Assembly: GCF_004358345.1 (NCBI RefSeq)
Contig: NZ_CP037952.1
Span: 2,790,001-2,854,000, forward strand
DNA from: Parashewanella spongiae
GTDB taxonomy: Bacteria > Pseudomonadota > Gammaproteobacteria > Enterobacterales > Shewanellaceae
DNA length: 64,000 nt
Reading direction: 5' to 3'
Below, in pieces: positions 1-36,074 of this stretch. The notes under the pieces are model-generated. The model was not told where the DNA came from and did no database searches. It saw only the letters and a list, made by a program, of their open reading frames with translations. How positions within the stretch are numbered: the first letter of the stretch is position 1; the number at the start of each line of letters is the position of its first letter. The translations under genes and the position numbers were made by a program.

Positions 1-85
1 TATATTCTATTTTCAAGTGTAATTGGTGTTAAATTTATTGGAAATAATAAATTCAAAAGGTAAAAATATAAAGTTAGAAAGATTG

Positions 86-109
86 AAGGCATAGAGATTT
101 CTACGCCTT
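86..109 (-). terminator. weak hairpin after the envelope operon
   Basis: AAGGC at 86-90 pairs with GCCTT at 105-109, with TAGA/TCTA continuing the stem inside. It lies just beyond the stop of the DUF4282 gene on the minus strand. The tract that follows on that strand is T-rich but not a clean U-run, so it is only a weak terminator candidate. Confidence 0.35.
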
Positions 110-116
110 ATAGCAA

Positions 117-368
117 TTATTCAGGCTTATTGGCAATCTTGTTTAGATTTTCGTGAATTTTAAACAAAACAATCAACAATTCACACCAAATTCTTGTGCC
201 AATAACGCCACCGATTAGAACACCAAGACCATATAACAAGCCACCTCCATATTGAGTGAACATAATCGATATGCTAGATATCACTGTCCCGAAAAGCATC
301 AACCAGTATACAAAGGTAATAATTTTTGGTGTCAGCATTGAATCAAAAAAGAATATATCTCTCATCAC
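117..368 (-). CDS. DUF4282 domain small membrane protein
   Basis: This 83-residue protein has two hydrophobic segments, at about residues 15-37 and 42-68. The N-terminal pattern (FFFDSMLTPKIITFVYWL) is that of the DUF4282 family, small inner-membrane proteins of unknown function. It follows the preceding gene (stop at 423) by 54 bases, a larger gap than anywhere else in the operon, so co-transcription is likely but less certain. It ends in a charged tail (HENLNKIANKPE). Family assignment is by remembered consensus; no function can be read from the sequence. Confidence 0.75.
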   Translation of the reverse strand: MMRDIFFFDSMLTPKIITFVYWLMLFGTVISSISIMFTQYGGGLLYGLGVLIGGVIGTRIWCELLIVLFKIHENLNKIANKPE

Positions 369-422
369 GTTTCCTTGTAGTTATAGATGTAATCTCAGTT
401 ACTTCATTGAAATACTCAGCAA

Positions 423-992
423 TCAGTGCTGAGTATTATTCAATTCTTTTTCCAGCTCCTTCATCGCTTTCTGAGCTTTAAATTCTTCATATAACGCTTC
501 TTTTGAAGTTGGATCGAGCTTTTTTCCTGAATTTTCAACTAGTTCATTAAATGCCTTTTCCGGGTCTGGCATTGAGACTAAAACACAAAGCTGTTTTGCA
601 TTATCCAATTTTGCAAATGCTACTTTTTCTGGTTTTGAACCGACCAAATTCTGTTCAGCAACTTGTTTACTTACTTGTTCGAAGGTTCCGCCAACATTAG
701 TGGCTTGTTCACTTTGGACTTTACGCTGATATAGCTTATCCAGCACAGCGGCCTTAACCTTTATCTGCTGTGTTAAATCTGCCCTTGCAGCAGCTACAGC
801 CTGAGCTTTATCAATCGACAGGCTTCCAGACCAAGGCACGCAAGAACTAGAAGCCAAAGCATTCTCTAATGTTGGTTGTAATACCCAAATAGGAACACTG
901 TCATCGTTATGAAGTGGAGTCGATTGGGTTGTAGGGGTTGAGTTACAAGCCGCAAGTACTAGAGTTGTGGATAGCATAATAAATTTTTTCAC
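423..992 (-). CDS. LPP20-type outer-membrane lipoprotein
   Basis: This 189-residue lipoprotein has a lipobox LAAC with the acylated Cys at residue 16. The centre (residues ~60-130) has the LPP20 pattern: a W/C-containing start, then an alanine-rich helix (KAQAVAAARADLTQQIKV), then a strand ending in CVLVSMP. LPP20 proteins include Helicobacter LPP20 and the Vibrio flagellar protein FlgP, which form rings or coats at the outer membrane. The C-terminus is a charged helix (residues ~150-189). It starts three bases after the stop of the lytic transglycosylase gene, so the two are translationally close. Its partner is inferred to be one of the other LPP20-like proteins of this operon. There is no flagellar gene in the window, so a flagellar role is not supported here. 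Confidence 0.75.
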   Translation of the reverse strand: MKKFIMLSTTLVLAACNSTPTTQSTPLHNDDSVPIWVLQPTLENALASSSCVPWSGSLSIDKAQAVAAARADLTQQIKVKAAVLDKLYQRKVQSEQATNVGGTFEQVSKQVAEQNLVGSKPEKVAFAKLDNAKQLCVLVSMPDPEKAFNELVENSGKKLDPTSKEALYEEFKAQKAMKELEKELNNTQH

Positions 993-995
993 GAA

Positions 996-2171
996 TTAAA
1001 TTCCTTTTATTTGTTGCTCGTAATCATCACTGCGCTTGAGTACTTTTCTCAAATAGTTTCGAGTTTCTTCAGCCGGAAGGTTGCGCAATAACTTTTGATG
1101 CAGTTGTTGAGGTGACATTAAGTTGGCGGCGATTGCAGCTCTGTTAAGTGAATTCGTTCCCGTTAATGTTTTGGCTACATTTCCAATACCAGTGTTATAT
1201 GCAGCAATACATAAGTATTTTCTTGAGGTTGCATTACGTACCGCTTTAAAATATCGCTGGTCAAGAATATGCAGATAAGCGCTGCCAGCTTCAATATTAT
1301 TTGAAGACTGATATAGATACTCAGGTGAGTAAAGCATCGGCTTACCATGCATTAACGCACTGACATCTTTTCCTGCTGTCGTTGGCACAATCTGCATTAG
1401 TCCAAATGCAGGAATAGGTGATCGAGCCATAGGGTTAAAGCTAGATTCAGTATGAATAATTGCGAGCAACAATGAAGGCGAAACATGCCAACGTCTCGCT
1501 TGTTTACTGACTTCCTTTAAAAACGGTTTTGCTTTCTGTGGTAGGCTTTGCTTTGGTAGAGCAAAAGTAACAGAAGTTGCTTGTGCGCCATAGGTTACTA
1601 CAGGTGCTTTCTCTGCAATTGCTTGTTGTACAAGAACTGGTGATAATAATTTAACTCCCTCATTTTCCAATGCAAAGGTCTGTTTAACGACCTTATTGCT
1701 CGTTTCTATTCTTTTCTTAACTAGAGTTTGCTCTGCACTTTGATAGACAGGATCATTTGAAAGTGCTTGTTGAGTGCTTTGATTTGCTATCTTTTTTAAG
1801 ACATTTTTAGCCTCAATAGTTGGGGATAAATTGCTATTTATTTTTTTAAACTCGATTTTAACTTTACCCGTATCATAATCAATACTGGTTCTGGTATTTA
1901 AATCATCGCTATAGCTCACCCACACTTTTTTACTTGGGAGAAGTGCTTTGTCCCACTTTTGACCTATTTGCTTTTTATATTGAGTTTCTGCTTGCTGCCA
2001 TGCAGTAACAAACTCGCCAAATTCCTCTATATGCTGTTGTTGGAATTGAGCAAACTCACTATGTTCCTGCTTTAAAAATAATTCAAAGTCTTCGTCTGTA
2101 GCCAAAGTTGATTGCGTAAACCCAACGAACACGAGTAAAGGTATAATGCTGTTTTTTTGAAATTGCATCAT
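996..2171 (-). CDS. MltC-like lytic murein transglycosylase
   Basis: The 391-residue protein has an N-terminal signal peptide (cleavage near residue 24, after STLA) but no lipobox, unlike E. coli MltC. Residues ~28-200 resemble the MltC N-terminal domain (DUF3393). Residues ~225-380 are a Slt-type lysozyme-like domain, with the catalytic Glu at 242 in IIHTESSFNP, followed by AFGLMQIVP and AAYNTGIGNV, the standard family-1 motifs. It would cleave peptidoglycan glycan strands with 1,6-anhydro formation in the periplasm. Setting it in an operon of LPP20/CsgG-like proteins suggests it opens the wall locally for a trans-envelope structure; that is inference. It is 15 bases downstream of the 241-residue protein gene. 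Confidence 0.85.
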   Translation of the reverse strand: MMQFQKNSIIPLLVFVGFTQSTLATDEDFELFLKQEHSEFAQFQQQHIEEFGEFVTAWQQAETQYKKQIGQKWDKALLPSKKVWVSYSDDLNTRTSIDYDTGKVKIEFKKINSNLSPTIEAKNVLKKIANQSTQQALSNDPVYQSAEQTLVKKRIETSNKVVKQTFALENEGVKLLSPVLVQQAIAEKAPVVTYGAQATSVTFALPKQSLPQKAKPFLKEVSKQARRWHVSPSLLLAIIHTESSFNPMARSPIPAFGLMQIVPTTAGKDVSALMHGKPMLYSPEYLYQSSNNIEAGSAYLHILDQRYFKAVRNATSRKYLCIAAYNTGIGNVAKTLTGTNSLNRAAIAANLMSPQQLHQKLLRNLPAEETRNYLRKVLKRSDDYEQQIKGI

Positions 2172-2186
2172 TTTGCTTTCCTTAAC

Positions 2187-2912
2187 TTAAAAGTAGCTGC
2201 GTAGATCATCAGCTTGTTCACTTTCCAAAGCTTCCTGCTTATCGATAATTTGGTTTCTTAAAGCTGTGCATTGCATCGACTTACAACCATCCAACAAGGC
2301 TAAAGCTTCATTTAATTTATTTGCTTGCAACCACATATTCCCTACAGCAACCTTCGACTCAATAAGGTGTAACTGTTGGTTAGTTAGGTGTTTATCAAGA
2401 TAAGCTAAGCCTTTATTTAAAGGAGATTGACTCGCAATAAGTGCGATAGAATCAGCTTTTGTTTGAGGTTGGTTAAGAGAAATTTCAATTACGCTGCGGA
2501 GGCGTTGTTTCTGCTTAGTTTCAATAAAATACCATGCTAGTTTTAGTGCTAGAAAAGCTTCATTTACTTCAACAGAATTTACATGAATATCGCCTGTACA
2601 ATTCAACCAGTCATTATTTTTCTGCTGTTGATAATTATTAATATCAGCATCAATAAAATGAACCTTGTCTGGAATAGTCAAATTAAGCTTTTCTGACAGT
2701 TTTAGCTTTATACTTTCTTGGCTTGGCAAGGTAAGTGCTCGACGGCAAGCCTGCTCTGCAGCAGGCTTAGCCGATGGCTTTAATATTTTTACCCTAGCCC
2801 CATTTTCGTTCGCTTGGCTTAGAAAAAAAGCACTACGTTTTTCAATGGTGCTGGGTGTATTAAAGTCGACCGAATGACTTGATAACGTTAGCAGCAATAA
2901 GCTGGTTAACAT
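2187..2912 (-). CDS. exported protein of unknown function
   Basis: This 241-residue protein begins with a short hydrophobic leader (MLTSLLLLTLSSHS). No family is recognised. Residues ~110-225 are helical and look TPR-like (KLAWYFIETKQKQRLRSVIE; LNEALALLDGCKSMQC). Four cysteines (two near 56-104, two near 209-214) could form disulphides in the periplasm. Its start codon overlaps the stop of the preceding gene by one base (TAATG), so translation is probably coupled. It sits directly between the 431-residue exported protein and the transglycosylase, and so is likely part of the same machine. Confidence 0.7.
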   Translation of the reverse strand: MLTSLLLLTLSSHSVDFNTPSTIEKRSAFFLSQANENGARVKILKPSAKPAAEQACRRALTLPSQESIKLKLSEKLNLTIPDKVHFIDADINNYQQQKNNDWLNCTGDIHVNSVEVNEAFLALKLAWYFIETKQKQRLRSVIEISLNQPQTKADSIALIASQSPLNKGLAYLDKHLTNQQLHLIESKVAVGNMWLQANKLNEALALLDGCKSMQCTALRNQIIDKQEALESEQADDLRSYF

Positions 2913-4207
2913 TAAAGGTCACCCTTCTTTGTTACCTGACCTGAAGCACCTTTTGGGTTTTCAGCCTTTTCGTTTTTGCCACCTACAGCTTTAATTTTTC
3001 TGCCAGTAGAGCTTACAGTACCGTGACCTTGTATCTTACTGACCATTTCTGCATTAGCTTTCTTTGCCGCAGCTTCTAAGCTAGGTGCATAAACCGCAAC
3101 CGTATATTGCCAATGACCATCAGCACTTTTGAAGCTTTTGGTATTCACACCCGCTGGTAATTTCCCTTGTGCAATGGTGGCATACTCATCACTGGTTTTA
3201 AGTTGATTTAGAAATTCACTTCTTTCTTCATCAAGTACTTTAACTTGTTGTGGGTCATTGAAATCAGGATCGTCATACTCGAACTGGGTTGTTCCTTCCA
3301 TTTGGTTTTCATCAAAACTACCTTGCCAGTAGACTTTTTCACCTTTCATTGTTGCTAAAAGCGCTGATCTTGCTCGTGTTTGGGATTGTCTCTTTGCAAC
3401 TTGCTTTAATTTACGAGCAACACTGGAACTCTTGTTATTGCGGATAATAGCTGAGCCATAACCTAAAATAATCGTTTCACCCGTTCTCGCATCTGAAAGT
3501 ACTTTAGCGCCGACAGGCGGAAGAACGCCACTTTTAATATCTTTTATAACTTGTTTGAAAATACTATTGGGATCAGTATTTACAACTAATGCACCACTAT
3601 TTTTACTGATCTGTGAACGAGTTTTTGGTGTAGAGATTAAACTAACTCGAACGGTTTTGTTTTCAACATCATCATTAACATCGAAAGTCACAAATCCAGC
3701 TAAAGATCCAGATACAGCTTCTTTACATGCTTCTGTCATTTTATTCTGAGTATTCGCAACGCCTTCGTTACCTGTTTCGATATTTTCAAGACTAAGGCTC
3801 GCCACATTATTACATTGATGTTCAACCCCTTTCATATTTTCTATGAGTTGCTTTTTCGCAACCAAATATGCTTGGTTATAGGCTCCACGCTTAGAAAGTA
3901 GAGTCGCATTCATGTTGTTATAACCGGTATAGCTGGCACTACCTATTGACAAAATACCTGTGCCGCTTCCTACTTGGATCATTTTCACACCGTCTTCGTC
4001 ATCTTCTAGCAGAGCTTGATGAGCGACAGCTACAGCGACTTTAGGATCGGACGATGCAACAACCACATCACCTTTTACTGTGACATTTTCTGCGCCTTCT
4101 ATGGTTGTATTTGGCGTTGCTGGAAGCATATCGGTTAGATCAAAATCATCACTTGCTTGAGAAGCGAATGAGAGGCTTAGCGCAAGTCCGAGAATGTGAA
4201 GTTTCAT
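2912..4207 (-). CDS. large exported protein of unknown function in envelope operon
   Basis: This 431-residue protein has a signal peptide (MKLHILGLALSLSFASQASD). It is not recognised with confidence. Residues ~85-190 contain a small Gly/Ser-rich strand followed by an alanine-rich helix (KRGAYNQAYLVAKKQLIENM) and a strand that carries FVTFDVNDD, an LPP20-reminiscent order. Residues ~360-400 have a second helix-strand block (YTVAVYAPSLEAAAKKANAE). The C-terminus is lysine/glycine rich. Nine bases separate it from the preceding gene. Two cysteines (near 132 and 161) may pair. It may be a periplasmic subunit that assembles with its LPP20-like neighbours. Confidence 0.7.
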   Translation of the reverse strand: MKLHILGLALSLSFASQASDDFDLTDMLPATPNTTIEGAENVTVKGDVVVASSDPKVAVAVAHQALLEDDEDGVKMIQVGSGTGILSIGSASYTGYNNMNATLLSKRGAYNQAYLVAKKQLIENMKGVEHQCNNVASLSLENIETGNEGVANTQNKMTEACKEAVSGSLAGFVTFDVNDDVENKTVRVSLISTPKTRSQISKNSGALVVNTDPNSIFKQVIKDIKSGVLPPVGAKVLSDARTGETIILGYGSAIIRNNKSSSVARKLKQVAKRQSQTRARSALLATMKGEKVYWQGSFDENQMEGTTQFEYDDPDFNDPQQVKVLDEERSEFLNQLKTSDEYATIAQGKLPAGVNTKSFKSADGHWQYTVAVYAPSLEAAAKKANAEMVSKIQGHGTVSSTGRKIKAVGGKNEKAENPKGASGQVTKKGDL

Positions 4208-4216
4208 TTTGTTTCC

Positions 4217-5587
4217 TTACAAATAAGTGAGCGTAAAGTTATTGTTAATTTTAATTTGAGGCAGTGGTTTTGCTGCAATGGCGGCTAATGCTAAATGAAC
4301 CACTTGCGCTAATTCTCCAGAACTGCCCTTGTAGCGAACTCGTACAACGGTATTGTTATTATTTTGATGAATAGCAACATTTGATACCCCAGCCAAAGTA
4401 TTAAACACTGAAGCTATGTGTTCAGTTTGCTTCAATAGTCTATTTGGTATGATGATTTCTCTTGATAAACCACCTCGAGCTACTACTTGAGTAAAACCTT
4501 TCTGTAAATTTTTGTGTAAGTCTTGCAATTGGTTTTCATCAGCAAAATGAACATCAATAAGATCAGTCATAATTGAATCGTCTTTTGGCAACGCAATGAG
4601 CGACGGATCATTTTTCCAACTTGAATAGATGTTATTATGATCTTTCACATTAATTCTGATATCCAACCTTTGATTATTACCACTAGTTCTTAGTTTAGCT
4701 TTGGCTTTTACTGTTAATGATGAGTCGGAAGTTACCTCTATTCCTTGTTCGCCTAACCAAGCCGAAATAACTGTTTTTAACGGTTCAGGGGCATCAACTT
4801 TCACATACGGAGAACCTATTTGGCTCAACATTTGTGATGCTTGTTGAATCAGTGGGCGTTTCTCAACCACAACATTCAAAGTAATTTGAATGCCTCGATT
4901 ATCCATTTTTGTGGAGTCTAATGTTTGCCAACTTTTAATCAGCCCTTCACTGTGCATAGAAAGCTGCTGCCCAATGATTTCTTTCATGCTGGTTGACTCA
5001 ACATCATTTTCGATTAGCAAATCGGTCTGAGAGGATTGAGCATGGCTCTGAGTAAGCCATACACCAACGACTTGTGAAACAGCTCTTTGCAGTGCATCAT
5101 TTTCAGCATTTTTTAATGCCGTTTTTCCCTGCTCAGGCCATCCTTCCCCAATAACGGTAACTGCGATCTGTTGCGCTGCATCATCCCATTTAACAGGCTG
5201 AATTTTGGCTTTAGTATTTAACGCTAAAGTTGCAGTTACACAAGTATCATTGCCTTCTAATCGAGGAGATGAAGTATCAATCATGAGTGCTTGATGCTGA
5301 ATGCCTTCCAAGAGTTGTTCACGATTTGATTCATATAAGCGATGAACATCATCGTTAACGATACTCACATCAGAACTGCTTGAATTTAGATTTAAGCTCT
5401 TATTGCCTTTAATGAACTCAGCCAAAATTGATGCTGCTTGTGCTTTCGCACTACTAATAGCCGTTGTACCTCGTCCATAAGCGCAGGCTTGTGTTTCAAG
5501 CCTGCCATCTTCAAGTACTATAACTTCAGCACTTACAGCAAAAGATAAACCCGTGACTACAGCAGCCAATACGGATTTATTTATCAT
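4217..5587 (-). CDS. exported LPP20/FlgT-reminiscent protein
   Basis: This 456-residue protein has a signal peptide (cleavage near SAVSA, residue 20). Residues ~25-125 and again ~140-245 show the same order: a strand with a conserved Gly, then an Ala-rich helix (SSAKAQAASILAEFIKG; TALKNAENDALQRAVSQVVG), then a long amphipathic stretch and a strand ending in hydrophobics. This is like the N-terminal domain of the Vibrio H-ring protein FlgT and LPP20 proteins. A third domain (~270-345) looks like a small alpha/beta fold. It overlaps the preceding CsgG-like gene by four bases (ATGA), so translation is coupled. The FlgT likeness is by pattern only; a profile search would decide. Confidence 0.65.
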   Translation of the reverse strand: MINKSVLAAVVTGLSFAVSAEVIVLEDGRLETQACAYGRGTTAISSAKAQAASILAEFIKGNKSLNLNSSSSDVSIVNDDVHRLYESNREQLLEGIQHQALMIDTSSPRLEGNDTCVTATLALNTKAKIQPVKWDDAAQQIAVTVIGEGWPEQGKTALKNAENDALQRAVSQVVGVWLTQSHAQSSQTDLLIENDVESTSMKEIIGQQLSMHSEGLIKSWQTLDSTKMDNRGIQITLNVVVEKRPLIQQASQMLSQIGSPYVKVDAPEPLKTVISAWLGEQGIEVTSDSSLTVKAKAKLRTSGNNQRLDIRINVKDHNNIYSSWKNDPSLIALPKDDSIMTDLIDVHFADENQLQDLHKNLQKGFTQVVARGGLSREIIIPNRLLKQTEHIASVFNTLAGVSNVAIHQNNNNTVVRVRYKGSSGELAQVVHLALAAIAAKPLPQIKINNNFTLTYL

Positions 5588-6711
5588 GTGCGGTTCTCCA
5601 AGAAGTTCTTTGGAGCACCTACAGATACTGCAAAAATTTTAGCCCCATTTGATGGGCGATAGATACCATTTTTAGCCTGCCTCTCAATTTTTTCGGCTTC
5701 TGAACTATTTTTCCAACGAATGATTTTTCCGTTAGCACTATTTTTTGAGGGAGAAACACTTGCAACACCAATTGGCTCAACAAAACCAGCTTCATAACTA
5801 AAAATGATCATTGTTTCGTTTTTCAAAACACCTGCATTTTGACCTCTGTCTAGGCTAATTTGATCGCCTTTAATTCCTAATACTTGTGCAGTAGCTGGCA
5901 TTTCAGAAAGCATGCGAGTAAGAAGAATATCGATGCCACGAGATGCCATGTCATTAAGTACCGCATTTACGTGTGCAGCATCAAAGTAACGGTAGCCACT
6001 TACATAACGATTACTCGCCTTGATATACTTCATTTCTGATCGTTCACGCACATCTTCAGACTTTACACGAATTTTTCCTAAATTCGGATGCGACAATTTT
6101 TCTCGAGTATAAGGGTTTAATACAGATGAAGTAATTTCTAACGTATAATCCATCCAACTGGTGATACTGCCTTCGCTCTTAACTGTTCTGAGTGAATCTA
6201 GCTTCACAACAAAATCAGGTTGAAGTACACGTTGAGATGCAACCTTCTTTGCTAATGCTTTGGCACCCTGTTGTTCAAGAAAGATTTTTTGTTCTTTTGA
6301 AACCGTATCGTCATCACGAGTGACGATACGAAAACGATTTATGCCTGCAAACTGGTTTTCAAGCATTTTTAATAAATTGTGATCGTCGAATTCTCTTAAC
6401 GCTTTAACGCCTTCACCCTCTCCAGACACTCCTGCCACATCAAAATACATACGAACAATAGGTTTCTTAAGTGGGCAACCTTCATTCTCTGTGTTTGGAT
6501 TAAAAGTACAATTATCTAATCCTTGAGTATCAAAATATGAAGGAACGACAATATCATCATCACGAAAATCGTATGCGCTTTTTGCAATTAGTGCACTTGA
6601 AGCACGATTTGAAACTTTAGTGGCTTGTGTTTGCGACGGAGGTGTACTTTTACAGCCAGCAAGAAAGGCTAAAGTTAATACCGACAGAGTGAGATTCTTA
6701 TAGAGTTTCAT
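5584..6711 (-). CDS. CsgG-like outer-membrane lipoprotein
   Basis: This 375-residue lipoprotein has a lipobox LAGC with Cys at residue 20. The middle (residues ~85-260) follows the CsgG/LpoB-type alpha/beta order: a strand with RIVTRDD after a helix, then QGAKALAKKVASQRVLQPDFVVKLDSL and a wide strand-turn-strand that ends in NAVLNDMASRGIDILL. The C-terminus (ISLDRGQNAGVLKNETMIIF) resembles the C-terminal domain of FlgT, also seen after CsgG domains. CsgG itself is a nonameric outer-membrane pore. Whether this one forms a pore or a periplasmic ring cannot be told here. It has no curli neighbours, so csgG is not used as a name. Eight bases separate it from the upstream gene. Confidence 0.65.
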   Translation of the reverse strand: MKLYKNLTLSVLTLAFLAGCKSTPPSQTQATKVSNRASSALIAKSAYDFRDDDIVVPSYFDTQGLDNCTFNPNTENEGCPLKKPIVRMYFDVAGVSGEGEGVKALREFDDHNLLKMLENQFAGINRFRIVTRDDDTVSKEQKIFLEQQGAKALAKKVASQRVLQPDFVVKLDSLRTVKSEGSITSWMDYTLEITSSVLNPYTREKLSHPNLGKIRVKSEDVRERSEMKYIKASNRYVSGYRYFDAAHVNAVLNDMASRGIDILLTRMLSEMPATAQVLGIKGDQISLDRGQNAGVLKNETMIIFSYEAGFVEPIGVASVSPSKNSANGKIIRWKNSSEAEKIERQAKNGIYRPSNGAKIFAVSVGAPKNFLENRT

Positions 6712-6719
6712 TTGTTATC

Positions 6720-7619
6720 CTATTGTTCAGAATTCCATTGGCGAATAGGTCTATTTAAAATGATGACCAGTCGATTTATGGCTTCGTCCTTAGCTGTTTC
6801 CATTGAACGGCCTGATGACGTTGCAACGATGTTGTATTCTTTTAATGTATTAAATGGATGAATTGAATGCGTGAATTTGATGTGTAAACTCGCCTCTACG
6901 TATTTAATATGTCCACTATCCGAGTAGCGCCAATTGAGTTGTGGTTGCACCCAAATTACTTTTGCGCCATTACATTTGAGTCTATTATCAATAGCGGCAA
7001 CCACATTTTTTGGTATTGAATTATTTATGATTTGACAAGATATTTGCTTTAACGCTTGTTGGTGATGTTGTTTTAGCTTTTTTAATTCCGATCTAAATTT
7101 TAATTGCTTTCCATCTAGAGCTTCTAAAACCTGCAAGATCTGGGTGCTTCGATGTAGTTCCTGCTCGTGTTCAAGAGCGTGAATAAACTGTTGCTCTACC
7201 GAAGCATCAGGAATAGCAAGTCGATTTAAACCTGAAAGTTCGCCATAGAGCGAGCCTATTAAGTGCTCTTTTTTAATCCCAAGCAGCATTGCCGTTTGCT
7301 GGCCTTTCGAAGAAGTTTTTATTTCTTCAACACCAACTAAATCGAAAGGTAAGCTCGTAGTTTGAATTTTTTGTTTGAATTCTGAATCAGAGGTTGAACC
7401 AGACTTGGAGATTTTTAAAGTTTGGCTAACGTTAATATTAATGCTGAGTTGCGATGCTATCTCTGCCAATGCCGCTTTATGGGCATTGACACGAGAATCA
7501 GCGACGCCCTGACCAACTATATAACCATCAAACTCTTGCTTTTGCATATCCCATTCAGGCCATGCAAAAGCAAAGTTAGTCACTAATAATAGAGGAAGAC
7601 CCGCTAACCATTTAAACAT
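6720..7619 (-). CDS. exported LPP20-domain protein
   Basis: This 299-residue protein has a signal peptide (MFKWLAGLPLLLVTNFAFA). It begins the mature part with WPEWDMQKQEFDGYIVGQG, then the LPP20 helix SRVNAHKAALAEIASQLSIN and a strand region to about residue 115. The second half (~165-299) has two cysteines (194, 215), a strand pair, and a second helix SGRSMETAKDEAINRLVII at the end that recalls another LPP20-type helix. Its ATG shares one base with the stop of the upstream lipoprotein gene (TAATG). It is probably a periplasmic or outer-membrane-associated subunit that stacks with the other LPP20-like proteins of the operon. Confidence 0.7.
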   Translation of the reverse strand: MFKWLAGLPLLLVTNFAFAWPEWDMQKQEFDGYIVGQGVADSRVNAHKAALAEIASQLSININVSQTLKISKSGSTSDSEFKQKIQTTSLPFDLVGVEEIKTSSKGQQTAMLLGIKKEHLIGSLYGELSGLNRLAIPDASVEQQFIHALEHEQELHRSTQILQVLEALDGKQLKFRSELKKLKQHHQQALKQISCQIINNSIPKNVVAAIDNRLKCNGAKVIWVQPQLNWRYSDSGHIKYVEASLHIKFTHSIHPFNTLKEYNIVATSSGRSMETAKDEAINRLVIILNRPIRQWNSEQ

Positions 7620-8332
7620 TAAAGCTTTTTGCCTTTTGCTTCGTGTTCAGCCTGTAATTGTTCAATTTGCTTTATAGTATCTTGCTCAATTGAGATAATT
7701 TCATTAGCATCCATTGCAAGTGATAATTGGTCTTTCGCTTTAATCAGAGCTGAACCTAAATCTTTTGTATCATCTTTTTTCTCGTCATCACTCGAGAAAG
7801 AAGAAAATAGCGAACTAGTAGCATTTAATGCTGTAGCTTTTGCTACGGCTGTACCGTGTTGCGAAAGAATATAAGCAGATTTAGCAATTTCTACTGTTAA
7901 ATCACCTGCTAGCTCAACATTCGAATCATAAATTGTTTCATTAGCACTGTTATAAGCCGTAATCTTGTGAGCAATTTTATCTCCATCATTGGTGATATCA
8001 GCATCGAACTTAGCAATCGCTTGTTTCAATTCCTCATCAGACTTACCACTGCTCGCATATAAAAATGCTTGTACATCTGTGTGATTAACTCTGAGCTGAC
8101 GATATTCTTCCATCACATTGCGTTGGCGCTTTAAGATGGCTGCTGAAATATTTAAAAACTCATCGACACCCGGTTGAATTTTTACGGATTCATAGCCAAG
8201 GTCATCCATTTGTGTAGTGAGTTCTTTAATAACTTTCGCTCTGTCTATACTGCCAGCTGATTTATCATCAGTTGAAACACAGCCAAAAATTAGGGGGGTA
8301 GCAATTAGAGAAGCAAGTAACGTTTTTTTCAT
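7619..8332 (-). CDS. lipoprotein, first gene of the envelope operon
   Basis: This 237-residue protein starts with a lipoprotein signal (LIFGC, Cys at residue 18). The rest is predicted helical and acidic. A conserved-looking segment, DDLGYESVKIQPGVDEFLNISAAILKRQRN as spread over residues ~42-72, precedes helical hairpins and a C-terminal coiled coil (residues ~205-235). No family is recognised. As the promoter-proximal gene it sets the start of the operon; the next gene overlaps its stop by one base. It may be an outer-membrane anchor for the LPP20-type proteins, which is inference from context only. Confidence 0.7.
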   Translation of the reverse strand: MKKTLLASLIATPLIFGCVSTDDKSAGSIDRAKVIKELTTQMDDLGYESVKIQPGVDEFLNISAAILKRQRNVMEEYRQLRVNHTDVQAFLYASSGKSDEELKQAIAKFDADITNDGDKIAHKITAYNSANETIYDSNVELAGDLTVEIAKSAYILSQHGTAVAKATALNATSSLFSSFSSDDEKKDDTKDLGSALIKAKDQLSLAMDANEIISIEQDTIKQIEQLQAEHEAKGKKL

Positions 8333-9386
8333 GATTCAATTCCTTTTATTATTTTTAGACAAGGAATTGCAAAGTTAAAAATTATTATTATTTTCAACAT
8401 CTACACTTCCTTGTAGTGTTGGCAACATAACTTATAACTAATTAACATAAAATATATATTTTAAAATCACGCTCTGTTTGCTGAGTAAATACTCAATTAG
8501 TGTTTTTTTTATACTCGAAGATGTTTAAAGCATATAAATTCAAGTAAATACCCATGAAAATGATTTTTTTCTGATGATGTCACTACGAACAAGGCGCTCA
8601 GCAGGAAAATATTCGATTTCATTTGAATGTGCACTTAATAAACACTTTGTAATTTTTTGAATCAAGAGTCGATTGGCAATAACTTAGTATTCAGTTTGAT
8701 TGGGAAAAGAAATTGTTGAAATTTCAGATGAGGCGTGTACCCCCCTTTTTAATCTCTGGGGTAGGATTCCCCGCCCCTTGAGGTTTTAGTTAATCTAGAT
8801 GAGACCCCGATGCTTGCGGCGTGATTATTCATTCAACTCGGGATCAATTAACTAAAAGATTCATTTTAATAATTATTTATAAGAGGTAGTAATGAAAGGG
8901 GAAAATGAAGCGCTAAATTAAAGGCAATTTAGTATTATTCTTTTACCTATTTGTTGTAAACCCTTTTGGTTTACATAATATTTTTTTAAATTTGTAATCA
9001 TAAGCTGAATGATTAACTTTACTTTACGATTCATTACCATATGGAAATGTATTTTGATTTAAGTTACCTTACGTGGTCTACAATCCTTTAGTACATGTAG
9101 TAATCCTGTAAAAATACCTAAAATAGGTCATATTTCTCTAAGTACATGTAACATGTTTATTCATAAACCTTATGAAAGGATTCTAAGTGCATGAATCTAT
9201 TGACTGAGCACCCGACCGACCAACCATGTAGTGATTATCTAGTGAGTATTTGTTAAATACTATGCGTAAAAAATTGTTAATACAGTTGCTTATGATCAAA
9301 GACTTCTAAATTGAGATTTGGGACAAACTTGAGACTTGAGATCAAATCTACTTCAGACCGATAAATTGAGATTATTAATCTTTAGT
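8333..9386. other. gene-free stretch with operon promoter region
   Basis: No convincing coding frame is present on either strand. The first ~150 bases are AT-rich and must hold the promoter of the envelope operon transcribed leftwards. A nested inverted repeat occupies 8758-8857 (listed separately). Short palindromes such as GTACATGTA occur near 9090-9160. Nothing resembling a tRNA, known riboswitch or toxin-antitoxin pair was seen. Confidence 0.5.
8758..8857. other. nested inverted repeat of unknown function
   Basis: TTTTAGTTAAT at 8784-8794 is matched perfectly by ATTAACTAAAA at 8847-8857, and CCCGA (8806-8810) pairs with TCGGG (8838-8842) inside it. Just upstream, GGGG (8758-8761) and CCCC (8769-8772) bracket a 7-base loop, after a run of six C. 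The block is GC-richer than its surroundings. It could be a structured RNA or the remnant of a mobile element; no family is recognised. Confidence 0.4.
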
Positions 9387-11675
9387 TCAAAAGCCTGTTA
9401 ACGACTCACGGTACTTTACTTTTTTAAAGTAAAAATAGTGATCCATAATACCTTTAATAGCAAGAATTAATGGATGATGATAGATATTGTGCTCTTTTAA
9501 GTTAGTTTGCTTAAGCTGAAATATTGCATAGTTAAAATGGTAATAGCCATAAGTATTTGTTAAAGACCAATTAATGCTTCCACCGTGGTTTTCAACAAGC
9601 CATTGCGCCAACTCAAAGTCATGTTTTCTCATTGCCAGCATCAGCGCATCAAGTTTATATTTTTGTTCATGTGCAGTTACATTCGCCCCTAGCTCGATAA
9701 ACCTTTTTGCTAGCTCAACCTGATTTTCTTCTATTGCCATCATTAAAGGAGTATCACCCGTTGTAATCGGTACATTCACATTATTAAATTTTTTCAGTAG
9801 CAACTCTGAAAGCTCAAACTTTTTTTGCTTTAGTGCTATCGTTAAGCATGTATATCCTTCAGTGTCCTGCTTTGAAAGTAACTTCTGTATAACACCTTTG
9901 GGTAACCTCCTTAGCGCCCATGGAGTTATATCGTCATTTTCGGATAATATCGCTATCATTAAAAAATTTTGCTTAAAGGTATTAGTTGCTTCTACATTAG
10001 CGTTGTTTCTTATGAGCATCTTGACCACTTCAGTTTGCCCCGTATGGGCTGCTAAAACTAGAGCTGTTCCATATTTCCCCTGTATGTTGATATGTTTGGA
10101 ATGTGGTATCAGCTTCAACGCCATTTGTTCATTCTTAATCACAATCGCTGATTGCAGCGGAGTTTTACCATCAAATTTTTCATCACAACTGACACCCCGA
10201 CTCAGCAATAAGTCAACCAATGAAAAATGTCCGCCGAGAACCGCCCAATACATTATGCCATATCCGGGTAATGTTTTCGCAGACGGTGTCGCTCCATTGA
10301 GGATTAACGCTTCTGCGGTCTTACTATCTCCTAAATCCATGGCTAGACTTAAAATGGTTCGTCTTACATTGCCTTTTTTGCCAAAATTACCCTCGGATTT
10401 AAGGTCGAGCATCTTTGGTTCAACATGTGGAATGAGCTTATGCGTTAACTCAGGGTTCCCTGCTTTTATCGCTTCCCCAATTATATTGATTCCGGCACGA
10501 AAACAGTCTTCCTCAAAGCCGTTAGCCAACATAGCTATCAACAACTTCTCATTATTTTTTTGGATACACTTAATGAGTTGAGCTCTATCGCTCGCACTCT
10601 TAATATTTAATTTATGCCCGTGTTCGACAAGCTCTAAGGCTATATCATCCATTTCATAATAAATTACCAATGCCAGTAACGAATACCCAACATATAATTT
10701 AGAACTCGGTTTCGCCTTGGATAAAAGTAGCGCTGCGATATTTCTTTTTTTTAATCGTATTGCCGTTGTTAATGGCGTATCACCTTCACTATCAATGGCC
10801 TCGGCATCACAATTTTTTTCTATCAATATTGGTACCATAGAATCAGCGAAATCTTCCATTACGGCTAAATGCAGAGCCGAAGTACCCTCGTTATCTTTAA
10901 GATTTAAGTCATTAACGTCTGACATTTTCTCGATTAAACACTCAGCCATTTGCTGCTTGCCTAGAGTTAGGGCCACAAGTAATGGTGTTTGTTTATTTTG
11001 ATTAGTCACAGATAAACCGATAGATAAGTTAAGCAACAATTTTAAGATCTCAAGTTTCCCATACCTTACTGCTACAAAAACAGCGGTTTCCCCTTGACGA
11101 TTTCTGTGCAGGAAATTGCATTCAGGAAAGGCATCTAAAAGCATCTTTACAACTGTTGTATTTTCGCTCATTATTGCAGCCATTAACAAAGAATACCCTG
11201 AATTTGGTGCCGCATAGAAAGTTATAAGGGGTTCTTTTAATAAGCGGGTTATTTCTTGCTCATTTCCACGCCACAAAGAACAATGCAAAAGATGACTGTT
11301 ATTTAGCATGATTTCTGTTTGCTTACACCATTCCCCCTCATTAGTTCCCACATTACTGCCAACTGAATTTCCCCTTCCAGCCTCATTATGAAAATTATTT
11401 ATTAATTTGCACGCCCATCTAGAATTTTTACCTAAAGTAACTAAAAATGAATGTGATTGTCTTGCACTCGTTGTCACTGAAATCGTATTTTTAGTTTCTA
11501 ATTCTTGCTCCGATAGTGCTGTAATTAATTCAGGGAGCATTGCAACATCAGGGAGCATTGCAACATCAGGGAACATTGCAACATCAGGTAAAGCATTAAT
11601 ACATGATTCAGAGCTCATCATTTTTAACCCCAATAGGTTTTGAACAATAACTTTACAAGAAAGAAAACTGAGCAC
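9387..11675 (-). CDS. ankyrin-repeat protein, family 1 copy A
   Basis: This 762-residue cytosolic-looking protein has no signal peptide. Residues ~20-145 are a unique N-terminal region shared with copies B and C. From ~145 to ~735 the chain is a long series of about 33-residue ankyrin repeats (for example GETAVFVAVRYGKLEILKLL, GTSALHLAVMEDFADSMVPI, GDTPLMMAIEENQVELAKRF). Ankyrin arrays bind proteins; the target is unknown. The GTG at 11675 has a good ribosome site (AAAGG seven bases upstream), while an ATG lies 19 codons later at 11618; the GTG is preferred. Copy A carries three 18-bp units coding LPDVAM where B and C have one. Very close relatives lie at 12570-16068 and 17382-20930. Confidence 0.8.
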   Translation of the reverse strand: MLSFLSCKVIVQNLLGLKMMSSESCINALPDVAMFPDVAMLPDVAMLPELITALSEQELETKNTISVTTSARQSHSFLVTLGKNSRWACKLINNFHNEAGRGNSVGSNVGTNEGEWCKQTEIMLNNSHLLHCSLWRGNEQEITRLLKEPLITFYAAPNSGYSLLMAAIMSENTTVVKMLLDAFPECNFLHRNRQGETAVFVAVRYGKLEILKLLLNLSIGLSVTNQNKQTPLLVALTLGKQQMAECLIEKMSDVNDLNLKDNEGTSALHLAVMEDFADSMVPILIEKNCDAEAIDSEGDTPLTTAIRLKKRNIAALLLSKAKPSSKLYVGYSLLALVIYYEMDDIALELVEHGHKLNIKSASDRAQLIKCIQKNNEKLLIAMLANGFEEDCFRAGINIIGEAIKAGNPELTHKLIPHVEPKMLDLKSEGNFGKKGNVRRTILSLAMDLGDSKTAEALILNGATPSAKTLPGYGIMYWAVLGGHFSLVDLLLSRGVSCDEKFDGKTPLQSAIVIKNEQMALKLIPHSKHINIQGKYGTALVLAAHTGQTEVVKMLIRNNANVEATNTFKQNFLMIAILSENDDITPWALRRLPKGVIQKLLSKQDTEGYTCLTIALKQKKFELSELLLKKFNNVNVPITTGDTPLMMAIEENQVELAKRFIELGANVTAHEQKYKLDALMLAMRKHDFELAQWLVENHGGSINWSLTNTYGYYHFNYAIFQLKQTNLKEHNIYHHPLILAIKGIMDHYFYFKKVKYRESLTGF
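11533..11586 (-). repeat. 18-bp tandem repeat x3 inside ankyrin gene A
   Basis: Three consecutive 18-base units start at 11533, 11551 and 11569; two are identical and the third differs at one base. Each adds six residues (LPDVAM as read in the protein) near the N-terminus. Copies B and C have one unit at this place, so the array expanded in copy A only and kept the frame. Confidence 0.9.
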
Positions 11676-12569: not shown

Positions 12570-14375
12570 TCATGCCATAGCACTTTTAATAGCAAGAATT
12601 AATGGGTGATGCTCGATATTGTCATTTTCTAATTCAGGTCTATATAGATGAGATAATGCAGACTTCAAATGGGAATTACCATGAGTATTTATTAAAGACC
12701 AATTAATGCTACCTCCGTGGTTTTCAACAAGCCATTGCGCCAACTCAAAGTCATGCTGTATTATTGCCAGCATCAGCACATCAAATTTATTTCTTTGTTC
12801 ATGTGCAGTTACATTTGCCCCTAACTCGATAAACCTTTTTGCAAGTTCAACCTGATTTCCTTCTATTGCCATCATTAAGGGAGTATCACCTTCTGTAATA
12901 GGTACATTCACATTATTTAATTTTTCCAGTAGCAACTCTGAAAGCGCAAACTTTTTTCGACTTAGTGCTATCGTTAAGCATGTATATCCTTGAGTGTCCT
13001 GTTTTGAAAGTAACTTCTGTATAACACCTGTGGGTAATGTCCTTAGCGCCCATGGAGTTATTTCGTCATTTTCAGAAAGTATCGCTAGCATTAAAAAGTT
13101 TTGATTAAAGGTATTTGTTGCTTCTACATTAGCGTTATTACTTATGAGCACCTTGACCACTTCAGTTTGCCCCGTAAGGGCTGCTAAAACTAGAGCTGAA
13201 CCATCTTTACCCTGTGTGTTGATATCTTTGGAACGTGATATCAGCTTCAACGCCATTTGTTCATTCTTCTTCACAATCGCTGATTGCAGCGGAGTTCTAC
13301 CATAAATTTTTTCATCACAACTGACACCCCGACTCAGCAATAAGTCAACCAGTGAAGAATGTCCGCCGAGAACTGCCCAATACATTATGCTATACCCGGA
13401 GGATGGTTTCGCAAACGGTGTCGCTCCCTTGAGAATTAGCGCTTCTGCGGTCTTACTATCGCCTAAATCCATCGCTAGACTTAAAATCGTTCGGCTTACA
13501 CTGCCTATTTCGGGGTAATTAACCTCGAATTTAAGGTCGAGCATCTTCGGCTCAACGAGTGAAATGAGCTTATGCGCTAACTCAGAGTTCCCTGCTTTCA
13601 ACGCTTCCCCAATTATATTGATTTCGGCGCGAAAAAAGTCTTCCTCAAAGCCGTTAGCCAACATAGCAAACAACAACTCATCATTATTTTTTTGAATACA
13701 CTTAATGAGTTGAGCTCTATCGTTCGCACTATTAATATTTAATTTATGCCCGTGTTCGACAAGCTCTAGGGCTATATCATCCATTTTGTAATAAATGACC
13801 AATGCCAGTAACGAATATCCTTGATATAATTCAGAACTCGGTTTCGCCTTGGGTGAAAGTAGCGCTGCGATCTTCCTTTTTTCAAATCGTATTGCTGTTG
13901 TTAATGGCGTATCACCTTCACTATCAATGGCCTCGGTATCACAGTTTTTTTCAATCAATATTGGCACCATAGAATCAGCGAAGCCTTGCATTACGGCTAA
14001 ATGCAGAGCCGAAGTACCCTCGTTATCTTGAAAATTTAAGCCATTAATGTCTGACATATTCTCGATTAAACACTCAGCCATTTGCTGTCTACCTATAGCT
14101 AGGGCTACAAGTAATGGTGTTTGTTTTTTTTGATTCGTCACAGATAAATCGATAGATAAGTTAAGCAACAATTTTAAGATCTCAAGGTTCTCATACTTTA
14201 CTGCTACAAAAACAGCGGTTTCCCCTTGTCGATTTCTGTGCTGGAAATTGCATTCAGGACAGGCATCTAAAAGCATCTTTACAACTGTGGCATTTTCGCT
14301 CATTATTGCAGCCATTAATAAAGAATGTCCTGAACTTGGTACCGCATAGGAAGTCATATAGGGCTCTGTTAATAA
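12570..14375 (-). pseudogene. ankyrin-repeat family 1 copy B, 3' part split by IS
   Basis: This is the C-terminal ~600 residues of a family 1 ankyrin protein, reading on from MTSYAVPSSGHSLLMAAIMS to the stop at 12570. It aligns throughout with copy A (same repeats, same order) and differs by scattered substitutions. The upstream part of the gene lies at 15670-16068, on the far side of the ISAzo13-type element. Apart from the insertion the frame is open, so the disruption may be recent. It ends HPLILAIKSAMA, a slightly different C-terminus from copy A. A shortened protein from the internal ATG at 14357 is possible, but nothing shows that it is made. Confidence 0.85.
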
Positions 14376-28095: not shown

Positions 28096-28128
28096 CTTAG
28101 TACAAAGTAATTGAATAAAATTAAGCAG

Positions 28129-28199
28129 GAGCCGTATACGAGACCCGTACGTACGGTTCTGCGAGAGGGATGGGGCACTAACGCCTCACCCTACTCGAT
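28129..28199 (+). ncRNA. group II intron 3' fragment (domains V and VI)
   Basis: GAGCCGTA (28129-28136) pairs with TACGGTTC (28152-28159), with TACG/CGTA as the upper stem and CG as the two-base bulge: the domain V hairpin of group II introns. After a short joiner, GAGGGATGGGGC and GCCTCACCCTACTC form domain VI, with ACTAAC holding the bulged branch-point A. The 3' end would be ...CGAT at 28199. No intron-encoded reverse transcriptase or domains I-IV lie upstream, where an IS630 fragment is found instead. It cannot splice alone. It is followed directly by MITE3. Confidence 0.75.
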
Positions 28200-35923: not shown

Positions 35924-36074
35924 TTGGCAAAAACTAAATTAGTGTCCTAGACTAATTAATATTGAATTTCATTATTAGTGAGTTTCAAGCTCATTAATGA
36001 AAACCGAGTAGCGCACGGCTCGAAAGAGCCATTTCCCAATGCCCAAGCAACCTAGTTGTTTGGGCTTTTTTTTT
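35924..36074 (+). ncRNA. candidate small RNA with promoter and terminator
   Basis: TTGGCA (35924-35929) and TAGACT (35948-35953) are separated by 18 bases, like -35 and -10 boxes. Downstream come a hairpin TTAGTGAG/CTCATTAA (~35975-35997), a hairpin GGCTC-GAAA-GAGCC (~36018-36031), and a strong terminator at 36041-36074. Nothing in between encodes a protein. The three-hairpin layout of about 115 nt is typical of a bacterial sRNA; no known family is recognised. Alternatively the last hairpin simply terminates rsmF transcripts. Confidence 0.35.
36041..36074 (+). terminator. Rho-independent terminator
   Basis: GCCCAAGCAAC (36041-36051) pairs with GTTGTTTGGGC (36055-36065, one mismatch or G:U) around CTA, followed by nine T. 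It faces plus-strand transcripts coming from rsmF or from the candidate small RNA; the convergent tatD gene ends at 36105. Confidence 0.9.

Follow-up and report, generated by a model that had tools for sequence, protein, structure and literature searches.

What does a set of exported proteins resembling flagellar and curli outer-membrane components do when it is encoded away from flagellar and curli genes, together with its own cell wall hydrolase? This question is raised by an operon at positions 423 to 8332 (minus strand) of a 64,000-nucleotide stretch of the genome of the marine bacterium Parashewanella spongiae (contig NZ_CP037952.1, positions 2,790,001 to 2,854,000; hereafter the window, meaning the whole stretch analyzed). 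As far as the literature was searched, the operon represents a real, conserved, and apparently undescribed envelope system in which known protein families occur in a new combination; no description of it was found under the themes LPP20, FlgT, CsgG, transglycosylase, ETEC_3214, and DUF6844. The initial annotation had flagged the locus from its sequence as a possible envelope-spanning machine. The analysis reported here adds an eighth gene, a modular organization, a partner protein with an ETEC_3214 domain, and related gene sets that contain LpoB.

Operon structure and conservation

The operon comprises eight open reading frames separated by gaps of 3, 15, 9, and 8 bases or overlapping by 1, 4, and 1 bases, which we named in operon order from g8 (first) through g7, g6, g5, g4, g3, and g2 to g1 (last). 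The initial annotation described seven exported-protein genes in a row, overlapping or no more than 15 bases apart; the contiguous run stands, but the count is eight. By reading, all eight proteins appear to start with an export signal. A lipobox is present in g1, g6, and g8, and the residue after it is not Asp. Because lipoproteins without Asp at this place are sorted to the outer membrane, all three would be expected there. In comparisons with two same-genus genomes, nonsynonymous differences per site (pN, 0.05 to 0.46) were below synonymous differences (pS, 0.66 to 0.83) for every gene, with synonymous divergence (dS) saturated in 13 of the 16 comparisons; constraint was weakest in g7, which had the highest pN. 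Since pS far exceeds pN and the eight genes occur together in 11 loci, the operon is real beyond chance.

To survey the system, all loci (labeled L) were scanned with the same profiles over stretches of 7 to 20 kb each, L078 stopping at a contig end. The 31 loci counted are the window, 5 from genome contigs, 3 from Pseudoalteromonas replicons, 15 found via g6, and 7 found via the transglycosylase; the last group comes from nine places picked by choice, seven of which carried the system, that is, at least seven among a longer list of matches. Left out of the counts were L018 (an apparent duplicate, its operon in the same place as that of L005), L104 and L105 (other transglycosylases), and L086 to L090, which form a separate related set.

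The full eight-gene set is found in 11 of the 31 loci, the window included, in Shewanella and its genus group, Idiomarinaceae, Alteromonas, Pseudoalteromonas, and two further genomes. Gene order is the same in nine of these (L020 carries one extra gene), and g7 precedes g8 in the other two, L070 and L074; L003 and L004 are near copies. The gene-neighborhood search thus recovered the genes as a block and not only singly. A divergent version in five loci (L023 and L076 to L079) has the same kinds of genes in another order, with some missing. Six loci (L021, L022, L071, L072, L073, and L075) carry a mid form with g7, g8, g6, g5, and g1 and without g3 or g4; five of them also encode the transglycosylase (SLT) and the ETEC_3214-domain protein, termed the anchor below. 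In L072, g7 occupies two frames (525 to 1504), and the near relative L073 has a single frame. Seven loci carry a short form, and two (L098 and L100) a minimal form of anchor, g1, and g2. Judged by g6, the system is patchy across genomes: 7 of 60 relatives had a match, as did 17 of the 394 genomes searched in the order (three of them, G136, G162, and G265, by the N terminus only, at profile positions 4 to 63 or fewer) and, in the class, 2 of 369, one of which is the window's genome. Outside the operon, neighboring genes in 19 loci formed small clusters only, common to two to four loci and either of general kinds or from near kin.

A constant base and exchangeable heads

No part of the system is more constant than g1 and g2: in the uniform scan g1 was present in 30 of 31 loci, g2 in 29, and both together in 29. 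g1 (423 to 992) encodes a 189-residue LPP20-type lipoprotein with the lipobox LAAC, a pattern seen in 17 of 18 aligned proteins. The LPP20 model (PF02169) matches window g1 with an E value of 0.068 (14.1 bits) and window g7, an exported protein of 299 residues (6720 to 7619), with 3.9e-4 (21.2 bits), both below the Pfam cut-off of 25.9; that cut-off is passed by 3 of 10 g1 proteins scanned singly (L076, L097, and L098) and by 2 of 8 g7-type proteins (L020, 32.0 bits; L097, 31.7 bits). The LPP20-type identity first given to both genes finds support in these orthologs. The call of a lytic transglycosylase at 996 to 2171 also holds: the 391-residue, MltC-like g2 matches PF01464 (SLT) at 1e-24, and the Glu-Ser pair that includes catalytic Glu242 is kept in 16 of 16 aligned g2 proteins.

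The anchor belongs to the base in many loci. Proteins with an ETEC_3214 domain (98 bits in L020, cut-off 35) occur in 15 of the 31 loci and not in the window's operon; their hydrophobic N-terminal stretch suggests that they are probably inner-membrane anchors. The distant DUF6844 kin g4 is present in 16 loci; the two coexist only in L020 and are both missing only from L071, a distribution which, because the loci share descent, is not a statistical test. In the window, g4 (2912 to 4207) encodes an exported protein of 431 residues, which hhalign aligned with family g4v at 94% over 349 columns. A member of that family, in L076, matches PF20891 at 4.3e-27; neither window g4 nor any other protein of the host genome matched it. 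The exported 241-residue product of g3 (2187 to 2912) has no Pfam match. At its place the divergent type has a gene matching TPR_17 at 1.4e-5 (L077, 11868 to 12974), and hhalign did not show homology between the two. A defense role for the operon was considered and rejected; the only PADLOC match was a weak one, of g3 to a Lon model (E 0.0029).

The remaining four genes make up what we call the head. Its first gene, g8 (7619 to 8332), encodes a 237-residue lipoprotein with no significant Pfam match; the lipobox, IFGC in the window, follows the same pattern in 12 of 15 aligned proteins, and the gene was found in 11 of 11 long and 6 of 6 mid forms. g5 (4217 to 5587; 456 residues, exported) is FlgT_N-like and carries two SHS2/LPP20-like blocks. 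In its L077 ortholog, block 2 matches FlgT_N (E 7.6e-4) and block 1 matches LPP20 (E 0.028), both below cut-off, in agreement with the earlier description of a FlgT-reminiscent protein with duplicated LPP20-like blocks. By hhalign, the divergent family g5w reached 90% with FlgT over 115 columns, g5 itself 34% with FlgT directly, and g5 with g5x 92.5% over 92 columns. In these comparisons g2 served as a negative control and never exceeded 2.7% in 19 pairs.

The product of g6 (5584 to 6711; 375 residues) is a lipoprotein that appears to combine a distant CsgG/FlgT-middle-like region with a C-terminal FlgT_C-like small beta-barrel. It had been called a CsgG-like lipoprotein. The lipobox is indeed present in 15 of 15 aligned proteins, but window g6 has no Pfam match, CsgG included, and the relation emerges at a distance from profile comparison: a FlgT-like family, one member of which has two domains that match CsgG and FlgT_C in Pfam, aligned with g6 over 173 columns at 92%. 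The CsgG/FlgT relation of g6 is, judging from these alignments, distant and the weakest of our family calls.

Heads differ between loci: the base stands alone, with a two-gene head, or with g7-g8-g6-g5, the last with or without g4 and g3. The clearest series comes from one site in one genus, where the order is anchor-g1-SLT in L098 and L100, anchor-[g7 g8 g6 g5]-g1-SLT in L022, and anchor-[g7 X2]-g1-SLT in L102. Flanking proteins are 84 to 95% (L098), 78 to 95% (L100), and 54 to 83% (L102) identical to those of L022, and the immediate right-hand neighbors in L102 differ from those in L022. Based on this series, the g7-g8-g6-g5 block is a unit that has been gained or lost between anchor and g1. 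In the trees, built from 29 rows for g2 and 30 rows for g1, base genes cluster across head types: L101 and L106 fall with L020 (100/99 in both trees), L098 and L100 with L022 (100/100 in the g2 tree, 99/99 in the g1 tree), and L099 with L072/L073 (100/99 in the g2 tree, only 83/72 in the g1 tree). Long-branch warnings apply to L107, L075, L074, and L106 and, in the g1 tree, to others as well.

Among the short heads, a CsgG-family lipoprotein passes the cut-off of 20.8 bits in L106 (26.0), L107 (40.8), and L101 (36.9), each with a g7-type protein that is weakly LPP20-like; other short heads carry a lipoprotein termed X2, with no Pfam match in the two scanned. The frame at 4077 to 4910 of L106 is annotated as a TonB-dependent receptor, yet its product has 277 residues and is weakly LPP20-like (E 0.0015); the label is probably a misannotation.

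A replacement appears to be preserved on the replicons of Pseudoalteromonas HL-AS1 and HL-AS2, whose flanks share 80 to 87% DNA identity up to a LysE-type gene. At this site lie the eight-gene form in HL-AS1 (L007) and, oppositely oriented, a short form in HL-AS2 (L106). Beyond the short form, HL-AS2 retains a frame of 60 residues, the C-terminal 52 of which match the end of the HL-AS1 long-form g1 at 85% identity; against HL-AS2's own g1 this stub is 42% identical over 38 residues. Next comes a DUF4282 gene, the product of which is 78% identical to the window's DUF4282 protein beside g1. The simplest reading is that the long form was replaced by the short form in HL-AS2, pointing to roles that are equivalent or to an insertion hot spot common to both forms. 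Together, these results are good evidence of module exchange.

Proposed assembly and rival explanations

We infer, tentatively, that the eight genes encode one periplasmic and outer-membrane assembly, a scaffold and perhaps a ring built on a dedicated wall hydrolase; we regard this as a serious possibility, somewhat short of probable. In the outer membrane, g1 would recruit or confine g2, which would open glycan strands locally and clear the wall for the head. Where present (15 of 31 loci), the inner-membrane anchor would form part of this base and connect the two membranes through the wall; in the eight-gene form, g4 and g3 may stand in for it. On the base would sit an exchangeable outer-membrane head of g7, g8, g6, and g5, with its LPP20/FlgT blocks and CsgG/FlgT-like lipoprotein, which by analogy could form a ring or collar. 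Its possible purposes include a port, a base for adhesion, or local stiffening of the outer membrane. The analogy draws on FlgP, Lpp20, and FlgT, which share an SHS2 fold and of which FlgP and FlgT make rings; the same report ties ring formation to a beta-hairpin insert between the SHS2 helix and the second strand (PMC12222027). A cryo-electron tomography study describes unassigned complexes on Shewanella oneidensis vesicles (PMC8455137), and a tie between these and the operon is speculation. A more specific version, in which a non-flagellar, non-curli machine combines a membrane-joining wall-hydrolase base with heads swapped between lineages, perhaps under selection by phages or competitors, strikes us as rather doubtful.

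Several observations weigh against the scaffold. Once the single bridging two-domain protein was removed, g6 aligned with the FlgT-like family at only 18 to 19%, the same range as with FlgT itself, and no alignment was obtained with the host's true CsgG (2.8%) or the short-form CsgG-type lipoproteins, termed X (4.7%). The structure prediction proposed in the initial annotation was run on g4 and g6 and was informative for the last domain of g6 only: AlphaFold2 confidence (pLDDT) reached 35 for g4, and in g6 it was below 50 up to residue 272 and mostly 57 to 89 at residues 273 to 366, so that the usable part of the model is the last ~95 residues, predicted to form the small beta-barrel. Profile alignment found no homology between g6 and the short-form lipoproteins (besides the 4.7% for X, 5.9% for X2; X2 with FlgT gave 55%), so the long and short heads are positional alternatives whose kinship is unsupported there. 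Within the stretches scanned, the transglycosylase is absent from 2 of the 31 loci (L023, which lacks g1 as well, and L071). Near the operon, no gene for an energy source, a substrate, or an appendage was recognized.

The main rival to the scaffold is local control of the cell wall, in which the lipoproteins g1, g6, and g8 would act like LpoB to activate g2 and a wall synthase, with no ring or channel. We consider this unlikely on balance. Its strongest support, and a further point against the scaffold, comes from L086 to L090, five further DUF6844 loci that pair the DUF6844 protein with a FlgT-like protein, LpoB, and a lipoprotein of ~465 residues with at most weak TPR matches. LpoB scores 163 bits with TIGR02722 in L086 (cut-off 110.55) and passes the PF13036 cut-off in L086 and L089; the FlgT-like protein has a CsgG/LpoB-like middle in L087 and L089, with no such match in L086; and L089 adds a DUF1425 protein. 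An LpoB profile also aligned with g6w (90.6% over 99 columns) and g6 (78% over 65), although it held one FlgT-like row that may inflate both matches, and the minimal form, with only anchor, LPP20 lipoprotein, and SLT (L098 and L100), fits a regulator. For a regulator, however, several LPP20/FlgT-type proteins would seem more than enough. The system is also no simple substitute for LpoB, a possibility we rejected because LpoB is encoded elsewhere in the host (C1:568317), as it is in 49 of 60 relatives; the models TIGR02722 and PF13036 match none of the eight window proteins.

Two appendage-related readings are less probable still. An export or anchoring port for a surface protein or polymer, of the CsgG/HfaB kind, would account for the lipoproteins of three short forms (L101, L106, and L107) that pass the Pfam CsgG cut-off; we think it improbable, given that window g6 has neither a Pfam CsgG match nor an alignment to the host CsgG or the short-form lipoproteins, and that the annotation of the three named replicon loci shows neither a substrate gene nor a curli-type gene next to the set. 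A second H-ring, that is, an accessory flagellar collar encoded away from the flagellar locus, is very improbable, even though the operon encodes relatives of FlgT and of the LPP20 group, to which FlgP belongs. FlgI was found in 20 of 20 g6-bearing genomes searched (no short-form genome among them), which is weak evidence because FlgI is common in the order (110 of 148 genomes) and the 20 share descent. FlgT_C occurs in 89 of 148 genomes of the order, as against g6 in 17 of 394. The host genome (5.47 Mb in one contig, with the operon at C1:2790423-2798332) encodes FlgT (C1:3671513), an LPP20-type FlgP (3669356), and FlgI (3657070) in its flagellar locus, apart from the operon; the gene between FlgP and FlgT is presumably FlgO, by its place. 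Since this locus has its own FlgT and FlgP, the operon is not a displaced H-ring. With FlgT, FlgP, and FlgI at these positions and the sole Pfam CsgG match of the genome at 4903751, the set lies outside flagellar and curli loci, as first noted.

To our knowledge, ring-forming LPP20/FlgT proteins are known mainly from flagella. If the proposed scaffold is correct, the LPP20/FlgT toolkit also builds other outer-membrane structures, away from flagella and with their own wall hydrolase. The one-site series with no head, a two-gene head, and a four-gene head offers natural strains in which each module can be tested, and the system gives a functional context to two uncharacterized families, the ETEC_3214 domain and DUF6844.

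Genomic surroundings and comparison with known systems

Downstream of g1 lies g0 (117 to 368, minus strand), a DUF4282 membrane protein (PF14110, 2.9e-14) which we treated as a neighbor outside the counted system. A DUF4282 gene is found near the operon in the window, L005, and L019 and beside the g1 stub in L106, and its product may be a forgotten partner of the system. Upstream, an AT-rich stretch of 1.05 kb (8333 to 9386; 30% G+C versus 39% in the operon) presumably contains the promoter; promoter-like sites within 1 to 9400 were no more frequent than in shuffled sequences. Beyond it, 9387 to 11675 and 12570 to 14357 encode large, closely similar proteins of 762 and 595 residues, which we take to be tandem ankyrin-repeat-like proteins. 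Left of the window, L025 (G000:C1:2780000-2785181 for its positions 1 to 5182) contains what appear from their sequences to be type I restriction-modification-like genes and, at 8254 to 9224, a presumed RES-Xre toxin-antitoxin-like pair; the region next to the operon may be a variable island. A frame pair that we assume to be transposase-like adjoins the operon in L019 (1115 to 2379, genome G003), in line with a mobile context. Elsewhere in the window, Rfam matches mark a group II intron (28127 to 28199, 49.2 bits) and the small RNA SdsR/RyeB (35977 to 36073, 50.9 bits).

Among known systems, the flagellar H-ring of Vibrio and Shewanella (FlgO, FlgP, and FlgT) resembles the operon in its FlgT_N-like and LPP20-type domains, its lipoproteins, and its occurrence in Gammaproteobacteria. 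In the H-ring, which encircles the L-ring and supports assembly of the flagellum, FlgT is one chain with N, M, and C domains, whereas here the FlgT_N-like part is in g5 and the M/C-like part in g6, apparently a split. The H-ring is encoded with flagellar genes, and this operon stands outside the flagellar locus and includes an SLT enzyme. The H-ring is reported to help the flagellum through the outer membrane (PMC7693769). The likeness to CsgG and HfaB, of curli and holdfast systems, which form nonameric pores with beta-hairpins inserted in the membrane, consists in the CsgG-family lipoprotein of three short forms; the differences are that no curli or holdfast genes are annotated beside the named replicon loci and that window g6 lacks a Pfam or host-CsgG profile match.

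With MltC, g2 shares the SLT domain, the catalytic Glu, and part of the N-domain (Mltc_N, PF11873: 23.9 bits, barely above the cut-off of 22.6). MltC is an outer-membrane lipoprotein, whereas window g2 has no lipobox (the pattern occurs in 2 of 16 aligned g2 proteins) and does not reach the MltC equivalog NF008670 (180 bits, cut-off 375). Unlike MltC, g2 has a constant companion: each of the 29 loci that encode it also encodes the LPP20 lipoprotein g1. The LpoB sets of L086 to L090 share DUF6844, a FlgT_N/CsgG-like protein, and outer-membrane-type lipoproteins with the operon; they differ in having a true LpoB, and a g2-type SLT was not found in them. The g6-like two-domain protein of L089, unlike g6, has no lipobox in the part examined. 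Finally, the anchor carries the same NCBIfam domain as the E. coli ETEC_3214 protein, which is described, in strain H10407, as an uncharacterized 245-residue protein encoded on a type II secretion system island (PMC5554520).

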